This document shows, piece by piece, positions 260 through 58,666 of a DNA stretch of 64,000 nucleotides. The first letter of the stretch is position 1; the number at the start of each line of letters is the position of its first letter. The stretch covers positions 1-64,000 of the forward strand of contig CAIRMR010000007.1 of the NCBI GenBank assembly GCA_903879715.1, read 5' to 3'. Both the position numbers and the translations under genes were made by a program. Below the pieces are notes generated by a model that was not told the origin of the DNA, searched no databases, and saw only the letters and a program-made list of their open reading frames with translations. This DNA is from an uncultured Bacteroidales bacterium. Its GTDB lineage: Bacteria; Bacteroidota; Bacteroidia; Bacteroidales; UBA4417.

Positions 260-1543
260 CTAAATGAGAGTTTTATAAATCCCCACCATCTTTTCACTTA
301 GTATATTACTATCGAATTTTTCTTCAACCGCTTTTCGGCCGGCAAGACTCATGGCTTCGAGTTGTGCCGGATTTGAAAGTACTTCAGCAAGCTTTTCAGC
401 CAGGGCTGCGGCTGTATTGGGTTTGTAAATAACTCCGCCACCGGTGGCTTTGCTGATTTCAGGAAATGCGCCAAGATCAGGTTGAACCAACGGAACGCCT
501 GAGGCCAAGGCTTCGAGCTGGTATAAGCCGAACGCTTCTCCATTTAAAACAGGAACGGATAAAACTGTTGTTGATTTTAAAAAATCCTGCAACGCGGATT
601 GTGTAAAATCGTGTGTTATTTCAAAATCTGTTTCAATATTATTCTGTTTTAACTTGCTGATCTGCTTGTGAATAAATGCTTTGTCATCTCCGGTTTGACC
701 TCCTGTCGCTTTTAGTTTTACATCGTTGAAAGCCGGATTGTTTTTCAGAAGAACAAACGCATCTACAAGTATTTCGAAACCGTTTTCCTCGCACATCCTT
801 GAAACATAGCCAATGGCCCGCGGATCACTTGCAGGTTTGGAATACGCATACGCATCTGGAGTAACACCAACATGAAGCACATGAAGTTTTTCATTTGGAA
901 TATTCATCTTTTTCTGCATTACACCAGCAAAAAAGTCACTTACGGCGATAAAAGCATCCACGTCTTTGCCCTTTTCGGCCAGCAACTGCCACATTTTTTC
1001 ACGATGATCCGGGTGCATGGCATCCACCCAAACGTCTTCGTCCTGAAGCGAACAAACGACAGGAACTCCCACTTCATCGCGGACTTTTTTTGCCATTCCC
1101 AGCAAAAGCGCATTCGAAACGTGAACAACATCAGGTTTTTCGTGGTATTTCAAAAAATCGACCAATTGCTGAAGTTCTTCACTTTGGTGGCCTTCGGCAC
1201 CCAGAAGCATGGATTCGGTAAGTTCTTCAAGACCTTCAGCCCTGGTGGAGCTGGATTTTTTAGCTGCAAATTTTAATACAGGCGGCGAATCCATAAGTTT
1301 TTCAAACCATTTCGGCATATGCCTGAAAACCGGAAACTGTTTGAGATAGATATTTACGGCACCATAAAAAACGGGAATGCCTTCGTCGGTTTCACTGCCA
1401 TTTAGGGTAAGCGGAAGATACATGGGCAGGGTAATGGCATCGTGGCCTGCTTTTTTCAGCGAAGCTACTACACCGCTGTCGCGAAGGCAGTTGCCGCAGT
1501 AAAAGGTTCCGCCAAAACCGGGGACGATATGGACTATTTTCAT
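260..1543 (-). CDS. Glycosyltransferase family 4 (GT-B fold)
   Basis: A 427-residue cytoplasmic glycosyltransferase. The N-terminus has the GT-B pattern HIVPGFGG, with a short Gly-rich loop, followed by GNCLRDSGV. The C-terminal nucleotide-sugar domain carries an EX7E element (E-AFGLYQL-E, about residues 335-343) and then ASGVPLVQPDLGAFPE, which is typical of GT4. The donor and acceptor sugars cannot be read from sequence; transfer to a surface glycan or glycolipid is the family expectation. Its start codon ATGAAA abuts a 114-bp repeat element (1544-1657), and the BRO-type gene lies just upstream. If the element is ignored, the upstream stop and this start would overlap as ATGA. Full length for the family, with no visible damage. 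Confidence 0.85.
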   Translation of the reverse strand: MKIVHIVPGFGGTFYCGNCLRDSGVVASLKKAGHDAITLPMYLPLTLNGSETDEGIPVFYGAVNIYLKQFPVFRHMPKWFEKLMDSPPVLKFAAKKSSSTRAEGLEELTESMLLGAEGHQSEELQQLVDFLKYHEKPDVVHVSNALLLGMAKKVRDEVGVPVVCSLQDEDVWVDAMHPDHREKMWQLLAEKGKDVDAFIAVSDFFAGVMQKKMNIPNEKLHVLHVGVTPDAYAYSKPASDPRAIGYVSRMCEENGFEILVDAFVLLKNNPAFNDVKLKATGGQTGDDKAFIHKQISKLKQNNIETDFEITHDFTQSALQDFLKSTTVLSVPVLNGEAFGLYQLEALASGVPLVQPDLGAFPEISKATGGGVIYKPNTAAALAEKLAEVLSNPAQLEAMSLAGRKAVEEKFDSNILSEKMVGIYKTLI

Positions 1544-1657
1544 GTGTTATTGTTAATTTTTTACGGGTCACATGGAATACGCCAGATTGACCAATATCAT
1601 CTTCCCTGCCTGCTGCAGGCAGGGGTTGGTGATTTATTGCAATCATGGCTATTTCAT
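1544..1657 (-). promoter_or_regulatory. Start-codon-flush leader element, copy A
   Basis: Read on the minus strand it begins ATGAAATAGCCATGATTG and ends GTAAAAAATTAACAATAACAC directly before the ATGAAA start of the glycosyltransferase. It shares long blocks with copies at 16106-16203, 28186-28281 and 57223-57313: GATGATATT, TCAATCTGGCGTATTCC and CATGTGACC. GCCA-T-GATTG near the 5' end can pair with CAATC-TGGC, enclosing a loop. Only this copy carries a 21-bp palindrome (CCCTGCCTGC on each side of one base) inserted in the apical loop. The first ATGAAA overlaps the TGA stop of the upstream gene. Function unknown: a structured 5' leader or a small mobile element. Confidence 0.75.
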
Positions 1658-7943: not shown

Positions 7944-8417
7944 CTATAGTTGATAGTAGTCAATGTCGTCTTGGTTTAAGTCTGGTGGAATATCATTTTC
8001 TTTAATTTGTTCATCCAGGAATTTCTGATATTCTTCATCAAAAGTAAACTTTTCATGGTGTTTTTCATGGTTTCGGATATATTCACGGACAGTTTTCACA
8101 GCAGAATCAGATACCGATGAAGCATAGTAGTCATCGGCCCATTCAAACTTTTGACTGATGATTTTCTGATCGTTAGCCCAATGCGATGATTCTCCTTTTA
8201 TCAGATTCAACACTTTACTTATTGAAAGTTCAGCATTTAGCAGGAGCAGGCAATGAACATGATCTTCAACGCCATTGATAAAGTCGATGTGTATGCTGTG
8301 TTTCTTTGCGTTTTCCTTGATGTGTTTGAAGACGCTGACACGGATGGATTTTGCCAGGATCGGATGGCGGTATTTTGTTCCCCAGACAGCGTGTACCCAT
8401 ATTTTTACGTATGACAT
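7944..8417 (-). CDS. REP-associated / IS200-like Y1 transposase
   Basis: A 157-residue single-strand transposase from the start MSYVKIWVHAVWGTKYRHP; an upstream in-frame Met would add 34 residues translated from palindromic DNA and is rejected. It has the HUH metal-binding pair H53-V-H55 (GVEDHVHCLLL) and the catalytic tyrosine Y113 in VREYIRNHEKHH. It cuts and rejoins single-stranded DNA at hairpins. Three strong palindromes lie directly upstream (8433-8448, 8472-8491, 8531-8558), which suits the REP-associated (RAYT) type. It sits between the NuoEF fusion and a propeller gene, interrupting the redox cluster. Seems intact. Confidence 0.85.
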   Translation of the reverse strand: MSYVKIWVHAVWGTKYRHPILAKSIRVSVFKHIKENAKKHSIHIDFINGVEDHVHCLLLLNAELSISKVLNLIKGESSHWANDQKIISQKFEWADDYYASSVSDSAVKTVREYIRNHEKHHEKFTFDEEYQKFLDEQIKENDIPPDLNQDDIDYYQL

Positions 8418-15769: not shown

Positions 15770-16105
15770 TCAGTGAGATACAATTTCATTCAGTGCTTCG
15801 AAAACATATCTGTTCAGGGTAATGCCCCGCATTTTTGCAGAAATGGCAATTCGCTTGTGAAGTTCTGGCGTGAGGCGTATATTGAAACTGCCTTTGTAGC
15901 TTTTTTCAGGTGCAATGTTTTCAGCTTCACAATCTTTAATATGTTCATCAACCATAAAGCGAAACGCAGCAGTTAACTCCTTTACGGTTTCGCCTTCAAA
16001 TGTTACAAGATCGGTAATACCTTCTATTTTTCCATAAAAGATACTATCATCTGCCATAAAGTGGACAGAGCCGATAAATCCCTTATAATTTAAAACATCT
16101 TTCAT
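15770..16105 (-). CDS. hicB: HicB-family antitoxin
   Basis: A 111-residue antitoxin: the N-terminal partial RNase H-like HicB domain (YKGFIGSVHFMADDSIFYGKI, TFEGETVKELTAAFRFMVDEH) and a C-terminal ribbon-helix-helix DNA-binding part (FNIRLTPELHKRIAISAKM, ~73-92). It neutralises HicA and likely represses the operon. The upstream hicA ends 113 bp away instead of the usual few to 20 bp, because leader element B (16106-16203) lies between them. Its start ATGAAA is flush with the element's 3' end. Confidence 0.9.
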   Translation of the reverse strand: MKDVLNYKGFIGSVHFMADDSIFYGKIEGITDLVTFEGETVKELTAAFRFMVDEHIKDCEAENIAPEKSYKGSFNIRLTPELHKRIAISAKMRGITLNRYVFEALNEIVSH

Positions 16106-16203
16106 GTGTTATTAATTTGTTTTTTAAAGGTCACATGGAATACGCCAGATTGATCATAATATCATCTTCGGTTGGTGATTTATTCCAATCATGGCTATTT
16201 CAT
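16106..16203 (-). promoter_or_regulatory. Start-codon-flush leader element, copy B (inside hicAB)
   Basis: 98 bp between hicA and hicB. On the minus strand hicA's stop is followed by CAGGAGGATAAAAAG and then ATGAAATAG, the start of the element; the element ends in TTAATAACAC and the true hicB start ATGAAAGATG follows. Removing the element and one ATGAAA would give a normal hicAB spacing of 15 nt with AGGAGG properly placed. This is strong local evidence for insertion with ATGAAA at both borders. GCCA-T-GATTG pairs with CAATC-TGGC as in copy A. Confidence 0.8.
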
Positions 16204-16218
16204 CTTTTTATCCTCCTG

Positions 16219-16461
16219 TTAAATTAAACCCTCTTTTTTAATTTCTTCAAGAATCAATCCTATTTGATATTGTTTGAGAATGTTTCCCGGATGAGGCTTA
16301 TGGAGCTTAATTTTATGTGTTTTGCTTTGGAAACAAACCCTTGATCCGGTTCCCTGCAACTCTTCGTAACCCCAAACTGAAAGTACGCGTTTTAGTTCCG
16401 AATATGTAAAGTCCTTCGGATTTGATAATAACCGCGCCATCAATTTTTCGGTTTTCGACAT
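16219..16461 (-). CDS. hicA: HicA-family mRNA interferase toxin
   Basis: An 80-residue toxin with the HicA dsRBD-like fold: RVLSVWGYEELQGTGSRVCF followed by HKIKLHKPHPGNILKQYQIG. It belongs to the subfamily with GSR in place of the GSHH signature, and with the HKPHPG motif. HicA cleaves mRNA; HicB (15770-16105) is the antitoxin. Toxin first, antitoxin second, as is usual. A -7 box (TATCTTTG, minus 16483-16476) precedes it. Confidence 0.85.
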   Translation of the reverse strand: MSKTEKLMARLLSNPKDFTYSELKRVLSVWGYEELQGTGSRVCFQSKTHKIKLHKPHPGNILKQYQIGLILEEIKKEGLI

Positions 16462-16617: not shown

Positions 16618-17838
16618 TTATTTTTTCCTGATATCATACACCAGCATGGCATCACCATGCCTCATATAAAGCACTCCTTCCGAAATTACCGGAATAGTAA
16701 AAAACTCCTTGGTGCCAACAGGCATTTTAAAAGAACTGATAAGTTCCATTTTTCCATTGTCAACCTTTACCAGTCCAACCATTCCTTTTTCGGTATAGCA
16801 ATACAGCATATCGTCGGCAAAAATAAGGGACCCTTTATCGAATTTCAGGGAGTCGGAAAGCAAACCGGTAGTTGCATCCAAACTGCAATACCTGCGTGGT
16901 TTATACTGTGATGTATAAATGTAATTGCCAACTTTTACAAAACCGCCGTGCACATCGGTGACATTCGGGTTGTTCCAGGTTTCTGTTACCGAACGTCCAT
17001 CATCCGACAAAGCCAGTTTTACAGCGCCACTGCCACTACCTGCTAAAAAGTAAATACTTCCGTTATCGAAAAGTGAAGTATTGCCATGAATATCGCCCGT
17101 GCCTTTTAGTTGTTTGTTCCACAGAAGTTCTCCGGTAGCTGCATCCAGTCCAATCAGGTTGTGAATCGAAAAATTTACTATGATTTTTCGTGAAGGCAAA
17201 GAGATCAGCATTGGCGAAGTATAGGCTGTCGAATCGCCCATTGCTTTTGAAACCCATTCAATCTTTCCACTGAAACGGTCAAGCGCCACCGCATTTGTAT
17301 CAGAACCTCCCGGGAAACAATAAACCAAATTATTATTCAACAACAGTCCTTCGGAATATCCGAAACGGACATTAATGCCGTTTAAATCTTTTATCATATC
17401 GACCGACCATTTTTCTGTTCCATCAAGTGCATCGAAACAGATTACGCGGCCCATACTGGTTTCAATATACAGCAAACCATCTACCAGAGTTGGCGTGGAG
17501 CGTGACCCAGTGAAATTTTCCATCCACTCACGTCCGGTTGCTTTTTTCCAGATTAATGAGCCAGATTTATTGTAAGCAAAAAGGTACCCGATGCTATCGA
17601 TTTCGCCGGTTACATATATCCTGTCACCGGAAATAATAGGCGAACTGTATCCGTTGCCAATTCCTTCCACCTTCCAAAGCATTGCCGGACCTTCGGCAGG
17701 CCAGGATTTCAGCAGGTTTGTTTCCGGGTAAATACCGTTGCGCTGGGGACCACGGAATTGAGTGATGGTTTGTGCCAGCAGACTTCCCGAAATGAAAAGA
17801 AAAGCAATAAATAGGGTGACTTTAAATTTTTTAATCAT
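16618..17838 (-). CDS. Exported PQQ-type beta-propeller protein, tandem paralogue 1
   Basis: 406 residues with a signal peptide (IALFIASGSL-like hydrophobic core ending SLLAQ, about 1-22). The mature start FRGPQRNGIYPETNLLKSWP and the end RHGDAMLVYDIRKK are closely shared with the two upstream propellers at 18112 and 19658. Blade motifs include GSLIWKKATG, GTEKWSVDMIKDLNG, GKIEWVSKAMG and GELLWNKQLKG. Probably an eight-bladed periplasmic or surface propeller; no quinone ligands recognised. Confidence 0.8.
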   Translation of the reverse strand: MIKKFKVTLFIAFLFISGSLLAQTITQFRGPQRNGIYPETNLLKSWPAEGPAMLWKVEGIGNGYSSPIISGDRIYVTGEIDSIGYLFAYNKSGSLIWKKATGREWMENFTGSRSTPTLVDGLLYIETSMGRVICFDALDGTEKWSVDMIKDLNGINVRFGYSEGLLLNNNLVYCFPGGSDTNAVALDRFSGKIEWVSKAMGDSTAYTSPMLISLPSRKIIVNFSIHNLIGLDAATGELLWNKQLKGTGDIHGNTSLFDNGSIYFLAGSGSGAVKLALSDDGRSVTETWNNPNVTDVHGGFVKVGNYIYTSQYKPRRYCSLDATTGLLSDSLKFDKGSLIFADDMLYCYTEKGMVGLVKVDNGKMELISSFKMPVGTKEFFTIPVISEGVLYMRHGDAMLVYDIRKK

Positions 17839-18111: not shown

Positions 18112-19356
18112 TTATTTCTTCCTGATGTCATACACCATAAAAGCTTTTCCGTGGCGGATATACAGAACTCCATTTTTTATTACCGGGTGTGAAAAGTGTT
18201 CTTTGGTTCCGGCTATGATTTTAAATTTGCTGATCAACTCCATTTTGGCTGGAACAGGTTTTATAAGATTCATTTCACCACGCTGATTGTAGTAATAGAG
18301 CAAATTATCAGCCAGTGCCATTGATCCGGTGCCGATTTTCAGAGAATCGACAACCTTTCCGGTAGTGGCATCAACGCATATCAGCGAACGTTTCGATTCA
18401 CTGCCGGTATAAATGCGGTTATCAATTTTGATGAAACCACCCATGTAATTATCGACGGCTTTGTTGTTCCAAACCTGTGTTATCTGTTTTCCGTCGTCCG
18501 AAAGTTTCAGTTTTGTGCCGCAGTTGTTATCACCTGCAACATAATAAATATAGCCGTTTTCGTAATATGCCGAATTGCTGTGTGTATCACCCATTCCTGG
18601 TTTGCGTTCAGGTACAGGAACATTTACCTGCTCATGTGCCCAGAGTAATTTACCGGTTTCGGCATCAATTCCCATCAAATGATAAGCACTGAAAGTAACC
18701 AGTATTTTTAGTGATGGCAGGTTGATCATAATAGGAGAATTGTAACCGGGAATTTCACCAAATCCTTTGCATGACCAATTTATTTTACCTGTAAAACGAT
18801 TCAAAGAGACCACATTGTTGTCTACACCGCCGGGGGTAAGGAAAACCTGGTCGCCATCAATCAAAGGCGATTCGGCATGCCCGAAAAGCGTGAAATTCCC
18901 ATGTAAATCTTTAAGCATATCAACTGACCAAACCTTTTTACCTGATTGGGCATTCAGGCAATACAGGTTTCCAAGCCCGGAGCATACATAAATCAAATCA
19001 CCGACAACGGTAGGAGTGGAGCGCGATCCCTGGTATGAAACTACCCATTCCTGACCAAAATCTGATTTCCAGAGGAGCTTTCCCTGCAGATCAAACGCAA
19101 AAAGATAAGCAATGCTGTCTACTTCGCCTGTGATATAGACACGGTCGTTAGTTATAGCCGGCGGGCCATATCCGTTTCCTACCTCATTGTTGCTCCAGAG
19201 TAACGCCGGACCTTCGGCAGGCCAGGATTGCAAAAGATTTTTTTCAGGATAAACTCCATCGCGGTTGAGACCACGGAATTGAGCAATAACTTGTGCCTGA
19301 AGGCTAGCAGAAATCAAAACCGTGATGCAAACCAGGAAAAATGCGTTGCGGATCAT
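18112..19356 (-). CDS. Exported PQQ-type beta-propeller protein, tandem paralogue 2
   Basis: 414 residues; signal peptide ending SLQAQ (~1-21). Shares with its neighbours FRGLNRDGVYPEKNLLQSWP at the start, GEVDSIAYLFAFDLQGKLLW, GKKVWSVDMLKDLHG, and RHGKAFMVYDIRKK at the end. Slightly longer than paralogue 1 through an insertion after GKLLWAHEQVN (PVPERKPGMGD). Same predicted role and location as the other members of the triplet. Confidence 0.8.
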   Translation of the reverse strand: MIRNAFFLVCITVLISASLQAQVIAQFRGLNRDGVYPEKNLLQSWPAEGPALLWSNNEVGNGYGPPAITNDRVYITGEVDSIAYLFAFDLQGKLLWKSDFGQEWVVSYQGSRSTPTVVGDLIYVCSGLGNLYCLNAQSGKKVWSVDMLKDLHGNFTLFGHAESPLIDGDQVFLTPGGVDNNVVSLNRFTGKINWSCKGFGEIPGYNSPIMINLPSLKILVTFSAYHLMGIDAETGKLLWAHEQVNVPVPERKPGMGDTHSNSAYYENGYIYYVAGDNNCGTKLKLSDDGKQITQVWNNKAVDNYMGGFIKIDNRIYTGSESKRSLICVDATTGKVVDSLKIGTGSMALADNLLYYYNQRGEMNLIKPVPAKMELISKFKIIAGTKEHFSHPVIKNGVLYIRHGKAFMVYDIRKK

Positions 19357-28185: not shown

Positions 28186-28281
28186 ATGAAATAGACCTGA
28201 TTATATAAATCAACAACTAAGATGATATTATTTTTAATCATGCCGTATTCCATCTGACCCGCAAAAAATTAATACAAACAG
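28186..28281 (+). promoter_or_regulatory. Start-codon-flush leader element, copy C
   Basis: 96 bp beginning ATGAAATAGACCTGATTA and ending GCAAAAAATTAATACAAACAG directly before ATGAAAACTCC, the acyltransferase start. Shares AAGATGATATT, GCCGTATTCCAT and TGACCCG with copies A and B. The pairing is TGATTA with TAATCA here, different bases in the same position as GATTG/CAATC in A and B. Confidence 0.72.
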
Positions 28282-29088
28282 ATGAAAACTCCAGATGAAC
28301 TCAACTCCGGATGGCGCAAAGCTGCATCGTCCATTTATCGCAGGCCAACCGATTCAAAACTCTTTGGCTCGGTAGAAATGGATATCACCGAACTTGAACA
28401 GTATATAGCCGAAAAGCGTAAAAACGGTGTTAAAGCCACGCTTACGCATATTTTTATACTTGCTGCTGCCCGTGCGCTGAAAGAAGAAGTCCCTGAACTG
28501 AACACGTATATTAAACGCGGAAATGTTGTGTTGCGCGATCATATCGATGTAATGGTCAGTGTTTTACTCCGCGAATCGCAGATGGGCTCTGTTTTGATTA
28601 AGGATGCGGATCAGCTCACCCTCCAAGAGTTGATTAAAGTAATGAATGAAGAAGTTAAAAATTCGCGTAAAGGCAATGAAAATAAGACTATGCGAATGAA
28701 AGACAAACTGGCCCGGATTCCATGGCCTGTGCGTGGCTGGGTTTTCCGGATGCTGAAAACTATTACTTCCGACTGGGGATTTTCATTTCCTTCGCTGGGC
28801 TTGTCGGCAAATACTTTCGGCTCATTTGTAGTTTCAAATATCGGCAATGTGGGACTCGATATGGGTTACCCTGCGCTGCTTCCTTCGTCGAATGTGGCCT
28901 TTGTTCTGGTGATTGGCGGTGTAAACCGGAAACCTGCTGTAGTTGGCGACCAGATTTTACCCCGCACCATTTTATCACTGGGTGCTGCCCTTGATCACCG
29001 CGTGGTGGATGCTTCGCATGGCGGATTGCTGTTCCGTTACCTGAAAAAGATTGTTAAAAACCCGGAGTTGCTGGATGAAAAGATATAG
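28282..29088 (+). CDS. 2-oxoacid dehydrogenase E2-type acyltransferase catalytic domain protein
   Basis: 268 residues corresponding only to the chloramphenicol-acetyltransferase-like catalytic domain of E2 proteins; no lipoyl or peripheral-subunit-binding domain. The catalytic HxxxD appears as DHRVVDASHGG near the C-terminus, with Ala where E2 enzymes normally have Gly. GSFVVSNIGNVGLD corresponds to the usual TxxNxG region. Probably a CoA-dependent acyltransferase acting on an unknown acceptor. Preceded flush by leader element C; followed by a hairpin at 29139-29171. Confidence 0.8.
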   Translation: MKTPDELNSGWRKAASSIYRRPTDSKLFGSVEMDITELEQYIAEKRKNGVKATLTHIFILAAARALKEEVPELNTYIKRGNVVLRDHIDVMVSVLLRESQMGSVLIKDADQLTLQELIKVMNEEVKNSRKGNENKTMRMKDKLARIPWPVRGWVFRMLKTITSDWGFSFPSLGLSANTFGSFVVSNIGNVGLDMGYPALLPSSNVAFVLVIGGVNRKPAVVGDQILPRTILSLGAALDHRVVDASHGGLLFRYLKKIVKNPELLDEKI

Positions 29089-57222: not shown

Positions 57223-57313
57223 ATGAAACGAGCCATGCCAAAACTTTGTCACACAGAGGAATGATTATGCATGGCGAGTTCCATGTGACCAGTAAAAAAT
57301 AAAATACAAACAC
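57223..57313 (+). promoter_or_regulatory. Start-codon-flush leader element, copy D (between susC and susD)
   Basis: 91 bp, beginning ATGAAACGAGCCATGC and ending AATACAAACAC directly before the susD start ATGAAAAAG. It keeps GAATGATTATG, GGCGAGTTCCATGTGACC and GTAAAAAAT. A perfect 7-bp stem (GCCATGC with GCATGGC) replaces the one in copies A and B, i.e. compensating changes. Unlike the others the first ATG opens a 13-codon frame (MKRAMPKLCHTEE) instead of ATG-AAA-TAG. Confidence 0.72.
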
Positions 57314-58666
57314 ATGAAAAAGACTTTAGTAATATCAATTTTGATCCTGTCACTTTTAACAGGGTGTGAGGGCTTTCTCGATAATCCACCTCCTACTGGA
57401 CTCTCGGCAGATAAACTGGTCGATATACCATCAATGCAGGCTTTAATTGCCGGTGCATATGATTTAGCGAGAACTTTTGTCCCTCAGTCCTCTCTTTATG
57501 CGACGGCTATGGTAAGAGATGTTATAGTAGTTAACAGGGCTGAATATGCACAATTTTACGACCACCAGTTGTCGGATAATATGTCATCATGGATGTATAC
57601 ATCAGCTTACAGTGTACTTCATAACATTAACACAGTAGCTACTAGCGATGTAGAAAAAATGCAAGGTACAGTTGCCGTGAAGAATGCTGTTTTAGGGGAT
57701 ATGCATTTCCTGAGGGCACTGGTTTATTTTGATTTGAACAATTATTTTGAATTGCCATCTACCGGGTACTCGGTTCCATTAGTAAAAGTCCCTATTGGTG
57801 CAAACGACAGGGTTTCATGTACTCCTTCCGCTGATATAATAAAATCAATTGAAGAAGACATTGAATTGGCCAGGACCTATTTTAAAGAAACTTCAGGCGT
57901 GTCTAATTATTATGCTGCTACTGCATTAGCTGCACGCATTTACTTCTTTAATAAAGAATATGACAAAGCATATGAAAGAGCAAATGAAGTGATTGCAAGT
58001 GGAAAGTATAAAATTGAAAACGACGTAAAGGCTCCATTTGTTCCTAAGGCTAATTCTCTTGAAAATATCTTTTCTTTCAAGTATAATTCAGCAGATGGTA
58101 GTGGAAATTCTCCTACGAGCACCACATATGAAGCATATCAATTAAACGAATCGAGTGGTTTTTACAGATTAAATCCGGAAGAAGTACTCTCGCACCTCAT
58201 GCTGACTGATTCAACAGACAAACGATATCTGGCCTTTTACACCAAGCAACCTTCCTATACCTATATCAATGGCAAGTATTCAACGGATCAAATGAGCTTA
58301 ATATACATCCGGTTAGCAGAAATGTATTTAACCAGGGCCGAAGCAAATATAATGAAGAACAATTCCGTAAGCCAGCAAGATATTGACGACATTAATATCA
58401 TCCGGAAAAGGGCAAATGCATCGACAGTAATAAATTCAATTCCAGATGTGCAAACAACACTTGATATTATTTTCAATGAGCGAACTAAAGAACTGGCTAT
58501 TGAAAATGGGGATCATTACCTCAATGTTAAACGTCTGCAAAAGGGAATTGTTAGAATACCATCCGAAGGAACCGGATTAAAACCTTATAGTGAATACAGC
58601 GATTTATTGGCCTTCCCCTTCCCGCCAAATGAAGTGATCATACATAATCTTACCCGTAATCCCTGA
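57314..58666 (+). CDS. SusD/RagB-family glycan-binding lipoprotein
   Basis: 450 residues with lipobox LLTGCEGF and an adjacent DNPPPTGLSADKLVD. Tetratricopeptide-rich SusD fold: VLGDMHFLRALVYFDLNNYF, AALAARIYFFNKEYDKAYER, IYIRLAEMYLTRAEANIMK, and the C-terminal IIFNERTKELAIENGDHYLN. Surface lipoprotein forming the lid of the SusC transporter. Its start is flush with leader element D. Confidence 0.93.
   Translation: MKKTLVISILILSLLTGCEGFLDNPPPTGLSADKLVDIPSMQALIAGAYDLARTFVPQSSLYATAMVRDVIVVNRAEYAQFYDHQLSDNMSSWMYTSAYSVLHNINTVATSDVEKMQGTVAVKNAVLGDMHFLRALVYFDLNNYFELPSTGYSVPLVKVPIGANDRVSCTPSADIIKSIEEDIELARTYFKETSGVSNYYAATALAARIYFFNKEYDKAYERANEVIASGKYKIENDVKAPFVPKANSLENIFSFKYNSADGSGNSPTSTTYEAYQLNESSGFYRLNPEEVLSHLMLTDSTDKRYLAFYTKQPSYTYINGKYSTDQMSLIYIRLAEMYLTRAEANIMKNNSVSQQDIDDINIIRKRANASTVINSIPDVQTTLDIIFNERTKELAIENGDHYLNVKRLQKGIVRIPSEGTGLKPYSEYSDLLAFPFPPNEVIIHNLTRNP

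Follow-up and report, generated by a model that had tools for sequence, protein, structure and literature searches.

The mycobacterial MIRUs, scattered repeats of 40–100 bp of which some stand in tandem, are reported to be mobile and to enter genes at the start codon without doing them much damage (in passages of PMC12548453 and PMC2734929), and an ORF coupled to the gene has been described for them (in the former). The Rickettsia palindromic elements (RPE), according to the portion of PMC3733652 that treats them, are short palindromic repeats that enter genes and lie in-frame within ORFs. Miniature IS200/IS605 elements and the REP/RAYT systems, finally, combine an imperfect hairpin and a short fixed target with many copies; a guide on the 5′ side of the hairpin foot that contacts the cleavage sites belongs to the former, and GTAG or CGTC at the foot to the latter.

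Here we analyse a 98-bp element that separates hicA from hicB in a 64,000-nucleotide stretch of DNA (hereafter, the window) from an uncultured Bacteroidales bacterium (Table 1). The 98 bp are very likely a short mobile repeat, non-autonomous and site-specific with ATGAA as its target, that was inserted once. In behaviour the element is most like the MIRUs, a likeness drawn from published descriptions: it is dispersed, of similar length, forms two-copy clusters (14 of 67) and inserts at start codons (32 of 61 clusters in its own genome, 44 of 68 copies elsewhere), and three Chitinophaga copies (L223, L226 and L240) show the −4 overlap spacing that is given for MIRUs. It differs from them in belonging to another phylum, in its apparent target ATGAA, in its two covarying hairpins, and in that coupling is mostly absent, the left ORF spanning 2, 4 or 13 codons in 60 of 63 own-genome copies. 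With the RPE it shares the entry of short palindromic repeats into genes, although the commonest recognised place of the element is the start codon, whereas RPE form in-frame ORF inserts. The imperfect hairpin, the short fixed target and the many copies of IS200/IS605 miniatures and REP/RAYT recur in the element, which also has a candidate guide complementary to its target; unlike in these systems, however, no associated Y1 gene was found in its own genome, a single guide-like TTCCAT would have to serve both of its ends, and GTAG or CGTC tags are no rule. A literature search by titles and opening lines, which covered few subscription papers and speaks only weakly for novelty, returned no such element from Bacteroidota, and the available portions of two repeat papers that name Bacteroidetes (PMC3733652 and PMC5771137) hold no description of it.

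Table 1. Features of the hicAB locus and of the further element copies, in window positions
Feature	Position	Strand	Remark
hicA, 80-aa toxin of a toxin-antitoxin pair	16219..16461	−	ORF call and Pfam HicA_toxin (24.8 bits, slightly below the cut-off of 27); stop codon ends at 16219
AGGAGG of the ancestral hicA-hicB junction	16212..16217	−	also in empty G003 and G010
Inserted element, net 98 bp	16106..16203	−	missing from the corresponding junction in G003 and G010
Left junction ATGAAA (probable core ATGAA)	16198..16203	−	TAG directly after; old hicB start (16203) now Met-Lys-stop
Internal TTCCAT	16135..16140	−	complementary to both junction ATGAAA except at one position
Right junction ATGAAA, present hicB start codon and Lys codon	16100..16105	−	ORF call; hicB ATG at 16105, 98 nt beyond the old start
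hicB, 111-aa antitoxin	15770..16105	−	Pfam HicB 70 bits, above the cut-off
Hairpin H1	16135..16203	−	5′ arm ATGAAATAGCCATGATT (16203-16187), 3′ arm AATCTGGCGTATTCCAT (16151-16135); compensatory changes
Hairpin H2	16103..16137	−	CATGTG (16137-16132) with CACATG (16108-16103); holds the hicB start codon
Copy A	1538..1657	−	ends at ATGAAA of a 427-aa ORF; CCTGCCTGCAGCAGGCAGGG insert in H1 loop
Copy C	28186..28287	+	ends at ATGAAA of a 268-aa ORF
Copy D, another sub-family	57223..57319	+	ends at ATGAAA of a 450-aa ORF

Empty sites and the translation of hicB

A sequence-only reading of the window had placed a 98-bp insertion at the start of hicB and had reconstructed an empty site with a single ATGAAA. 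Comparison with insert-free relatives bears this out: among the 16 genomes of the genus, three (the own genome included) have HicB matches, and in G003 the hicA stop codon is followed by AGGAGG, a brief A-rich stretch, a single ATGAAA and hicB, while G010 has the same layout but with ATGAGA. Since both compact junctions lack the insert, the 98 bp were inserted at the hicB start codon, and a chance or old long spacer before hicB is ruled out. The same reading had held that the AGGAGG lies outside the element, and it is indeed kept in both insert-free loci. The single ATGAAA of the empty site has thus become two that flank the insert, the right one remaining the start of hicB. Together with this right ATGAAA, the hicB copy is matched by our covariance model at 16100-16203 (minus strand) with 102 bits (E 1.7e-16).

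Two further sites agree and likewise have natural empty counterparts. At the start of purA, for which 14 loci were viewed and compared by eye, the own genome (G000) is filled, G008 carries a decayed copy in the same place (L245) and 12 are empty, including G003 and G009 with a flank nearly identical to that of G000; given that G003 is nearer to G000 in PurA, this pattern reflects a loss or else a site that was hit twice. At the third site the element lies antisense within an ORF. The open stretch that is left in G000 measures 81 aa, whereas each of the nine relatives with a match has an ORF of 357–386 aa (in G009 there is an additional 144-aa match); of 10 loci inspected, 5 have a single TTTCAT at the site, and G003 is one of them.

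That hicB has been parted from its ribosome-binding site, as had also been claimed, is true of the distance, the AGGAGG now lying 98 bp further off, but less so of its consequence: Bacteroidia ribosomes are reported, in the accessible text of PMC9976891, to be blind to Shine-Dalgarno sequences, and the loss of the AGGAGG may therefore matter little. In spite of this reported blindness an AGGAGG is retained before hicB in three species (the window, L096 and L097), possibly a case like rpsU. What is said to matter for initiation in Bacteroidia, in passages of PMC9976891 and PMC8710568, is A at −3, −6, −12 and −13 and low structure; the consensus leader of the element is A-rich, but has C and not A at −3. 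With the insert, opening the start region of hicB is predicted to cost 2.9 kcal/mol, compared with 5.2 and 7.0 in the two empty relatives; averaged over 31 element-led genes the predicted cost is 3.7, and over 38 control genes 4.9. The start codon, by contrast, is predicted to be more paired in element-led genes (unpaired 0.20 versus 0.44 in controls). We considered a loss of hicB translation through folding and set it aside, as the predicted opening of the start region is no worse with the insert. On these folding predictions the probable effect of the insert is to uncouple hicB from hicA, with no clear weakening of the hicB start, and hicB, no longer tied to the translation of hicA, would be expected to use the leader of the element. 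The altered toxin:antitoxin ratio that the sequence-only reading expected is a possible outcome. For hicB the loss of the short distance to the hicA stop codon may be more important than that of the AGGAGG.

Copies, target core and hairpins

In the own genome (6.07 Mb) the covariance model finds at least 81 matches at E ≤ 0.01, which are those used below, and 94 at E ≤ 1, while a blast search with the element gives 57 matches at E ≤ 10; all own-genome copy counts are lower bounds, as 150 of 4711 first-look candidates were scored. Several contigs start or end in or beside copies (G000:C222:1-107, C20:4331-4428 and both ends of C216), and the element may therefore break assemblies and lower the counts. 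Most matches measure 93–122 bp (59 of 81), with 18 of 130–155 bp and four of 48–66 bp, and together they fall into 67 clusters. The four copies in the window have model E-values of 2e-12 to 1.7e-16, matches that are in part so by construction, because three of the four are among the own-genome copies from which the model was made. Independently of the model, a 21-mer of the element allowed up to three mismatches, with a chance expectation of 0.01, is found twice (itself and copy A). Rfam has no match in the window at the gathering score.

Some copies carry further small sequences. A GC-rich, palindrome-like insert sits in the H1 loop of two (copy A of the window and L009). In the 155-bp copies (L109, L099, L057, L111, L113 and L108) there are nested small elements, a second small repeat (TACCTGCGAAGCAAGCATTAATACC...) within the H2 loop of several and a third (ACCTTTAGCTCATTAACACC...) between H1 and TTCCAT in others. 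The window also holds a direct repeat of 126 nt, 76% identical, at 17673-17798 and 19194-19319 in neighbouring ORFs of 406 and 414 aa.

Concerning the target, the sequence-only reading had offered a 6-bp duplication or a target that re-creates the start; junction counts refine this to a probable 5-bp core, ATGAA. The left hexamer is ATGAAA in 68 of the 81 own copies, the rest being decayed, truncated or, once, ATGAAC, while at the right end ATGAA is followed by A in 65, T in 5, C in 3 and G in one (A after ATGAA: left 68/69 versus right 65/74, Fisher p 0.018). For other genomes we used 72 of 77 matches, leaving out four second readings and one opposite-strand overlap; in this set, picked by model score and with tandem copies unmerged, the left end reads ATGAAA 61 times and the right end ATGAAA 58, ATGAAC 5, ATGAAT 3 and ATGAAG once (61/61 versus 58/67, Fisher p 0.003). 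A left sixth base that is more uniform than the right one fits a common ATGAA core with the next right base supplied by the target, although the single own copy with left ATGAAC speaks against a strict left A. Judged from the junctions, the target core is most likely ATGAA. One common 6-bp junction is present in 13 of the 14 two-copy clusters, several of which mix sub-families, and this fits repeated insertion into the same core. Beyond ATGAA the two ends differ, the left continuing mostly with ATAGCC or ACGA and the right mostly with AACAC or AACAG among the listed copies. The internal TTCCAT is exact in 73 of 81 own copies and, as bottom-strand ATGGAA, could pair with both junctions except for one mismatch or wobble.

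The element can be drawn as two adjoining hairpins: across the family, left ATGAAATAGCCATGATT pairs with AATCATGGCGTATTCCAT in H1, and CATNNG with CNNATG in H2, the start codon inside. In an alignment of 19 own copies (A1), 94.8% of cells are paired and three of five covariation measures are reached by 0 of 500 shuffles; against this, 13 of 500 shuffles attain its number of double-change pairs, and its further pair types fall below the shuffles (497 of 500 as high). Alignment A2 comprises 77 matches (73 distinct rows) from other genomes, Chitinophaga and Chryseobacterium included, and gives 95.8% paired cells, double changes in 14 of 19 pairs and all five measures at 0 of 500 shuffles, a result that leans towards structure because A2 was fitted to the model. 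In H2, two pairs of A2 have both sides changed in 36 and 21 sequences. The two bases before the start codon vary together with their partners in 55 copies (CT/AG 25, GC/GC 13, GT/AC 12, and AC/GT, CC/GG and AT/AT once each), with two TT/AC against.

Start codons, leader ORFs and spread

Among the 61 own-genome clusters with a right end (6 of 67 lack one and were left out), 32 have an ORF of at least 100 aa that starts exactly there and 29 do not. In the window 57 ATGAA sites either are starts or lie outside ORFs, and 15 of these (26%) are starts, so that the clusters show an enrichment of about twofold (two-sided binomial p 1.5e-5); this background was derived solely from simple ORF calling in the window, and ATGAAA sites contributed by the elements themselves are counted in it. 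Outside the own genome an ORF of at least 100 aa begins at 44 of 68 copies, four of the 72 matches having no right ATG. In three of the 32 start clusters the ORF across the joined flanks is longer than that from the right ATG (461/414, 526/509 and 285/243 aa), so there the true start may lie upstream. As ATGAA is frequent at starts, opening 15 of the 47 ORFs called in the window, and initiation is reportedly free of Shine-Dalgarno sequences, an ATGAA-type target offers many tolerated sites. The modest excess of start codons may stem from selection and not from aim.

A rationale based on translational coupling fails in the own copies, because the ORF from the left start codon has merely 2, 4 or 13 codons in 60 of 63. 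The picture in Chitinophaga is more varied: in several copies the ORF from the old start runs through the element to a stop codon at position −13, −6 or +1 relative to the start of the gene, in others it ends about 40 nt before the gene, and in L219 it reads into it; the −4 TGA/ATG overlap with the gene occurs in the three copies named above, out of 21 loci. In 15 of 41 distinct leaders every reading frame meets a stop shortly before the start, versus 10.5% of shuffles and 1 of 22 control genes; we give this as a remark only because the leaders are related by descent.

At E ≤ 0.01, and with the own genome included, the element is present in 14 of 16 genomes of the genus and in 30 of 60 overall; an even draw across the phylum finds it in 9 of 198, own genome included, at E ≤ 1e-4, and the distribution is therefore patchy. 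The exact pattern of 19 fixed bases precedes start codons in named Chitinophaga records and one of Chryseobacterium. When two mismatches or fewer are tolerated, 24 matches are found in C. cymbidii versus 2 for a control pattern, while the 7 of G061 and 6 of G062 are background (control 8 and 8); a longer pattern gives 8, 1 and 2 matches in C. cymbidii, G061 and G062, respectively, versus none for the control in all three. The Chitinophaga and Chryseobacterium copies can be seen in context and have the same layout before start codons.

Mobilisation and rival explanations

We propose that the element moves in trans as single-stranded DNA by means of a hairpin-recognising enzyme, most likely of the HUH/Y1 type, and that the internal TTCCAT would pair with the ATGAA junctions during movement. 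With the ATG inside the target and an A-rich leader at the element end, a gene hit at its start codon would still be translatable, and such insertions would then survive. No excision or fresh transposition was seen.

The mobiliser part of this proposal can also be put as membership, the element then being a miniature IS200/IS605 or a REP whose movement depends on a Y1 transposase of the same genome; we regard this reading as quite possible while leaning slightly away from it. Its hairpin, with a putative guide at the foot, and the short fixed target beside it resemble what the relevant part of PMC6006769 describes for IS200/IS605, and the own genome has 16 Y1 transposase matches, 14 of them above the cut-off; in 16 genomes the tally of strong Y1 matches correlates with element counts (rho 0.69, p 0.003), but so does genome size (rho 0.59, p 0.016). 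Against this reading, no convincing element copy lies near the 16 own-genome Y1 loci (about 1.5 kb of flank, less where the contig ends; the best match to the model has E 0.96), and when the 250 bp on each flank were inspected by eye for 13 of the 16 genes, none proved to be flanked by the element. GTAG/CTAC, moreover, is present in just 11 of 81 copies, and CGTC/GACG in 8 (whole unit plus 8 nt each side). The 13 Y1 proteins inspected include five with a Y-Q-HH motif and three with an NP-type motif; Y-Q-HH marks a subclass that, according to the portion of PMC6006769 concerned, occurs mostly in Cyanobacteria and Bacteroidetes and lacks typical IS200 ends. An orphan Y1 group (profile A3, five own proteins) has matches in 15 of 16 genus genomes and in G064 at E ≤ 1e-10, but in none of four element-carrying genomes (three Chitinophaga, one Chryseobacterium), and G006 and G013 have the group with 0 and 1 elements; as a general helper it was rejected. 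Given no element beside the Y1 loci and no orphan group in Chitinophaga and Chryseobacterium, the Y1 route is a best guess by analogy, to which we assign somewhat less than an even chance.

Two observations on Y1 genes stand apart. The window itself contains a Y1 (HUH) transposase gene (8067-8408, minus strand). An IS200-like end finishing in TTCAT, seen by eye at L031 and L032, was set aside when its borders could not be fixed; the L031 protein resembles solved IS200/IS605 transposases.

Alternatively, the element could be a regulatory leader kept by selection, in which competing hairpins switch downstream translation, TTCCAT having two alternative partners, the left ATGAAA at the H1 foot and, through its CAT, the start codon in H2, and the spread following usefulness. 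That H2 contains the start codon and covaries, that start sites are about twofold enriched over the background outside genes, and that the same pre-start layout recurs in Chitinophaga and Chryseobacterium would all be in keeping with such a role; it is nevertheless improbable, as no ORF of at least 100 aa begins at 29 of 61 clusters, one copy is antisense in the interrupted ORF, presence at purA varies among congeners and the genes that follow the copies look unrelated to one another. A MITE of the conventional type, bounded by inverted repeats and by a target duplication from staggered cuts, would likewise be short, non-coding and dispersed with a short direct repeat on its flanks, but the ends of the element are not mutual inverted repeats and the flanking repeat is nearly always ATGAA instead of a random duplication, which makes this very unlikely. 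Least credible of all is ribosome bypassing from the old start, with exit at Met-Lys and landing on the second ATGAAA: matching take-off and landing codons with a stop straight after take-off, as in phage T4 gene 60, are seen in sub-family 1, but the other sub-families have no stop directly after ATGAAA, bypassing is superfluous where the landing site already has a start codon, and the in-gene copy is antisense.

Returning to the insertion of a mobile repeat at ATGAA, one may go further and imagine a Bacteroidota family that aims at start codons by base pairing, with TTCCAT as the guide for ATGAA, and that leaves the gene with a structured leader, where the guide can also fold back onto the start codon. 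We consider this extension rather doubtful; if it were true, one hexamer would serve both target choice and translational control.

Start-codon insertion is hereby shown outside mycobacteria and, if the element and the MIRU families are unrelated, this lifestyle in a gene-dense genome has more than one origin. The annotation of leaders, uORFs and start sites in element-bearing genomes needs to change accordingly, and the copies in named Chitinophaga isolates make start-codon insertion open to experiment.
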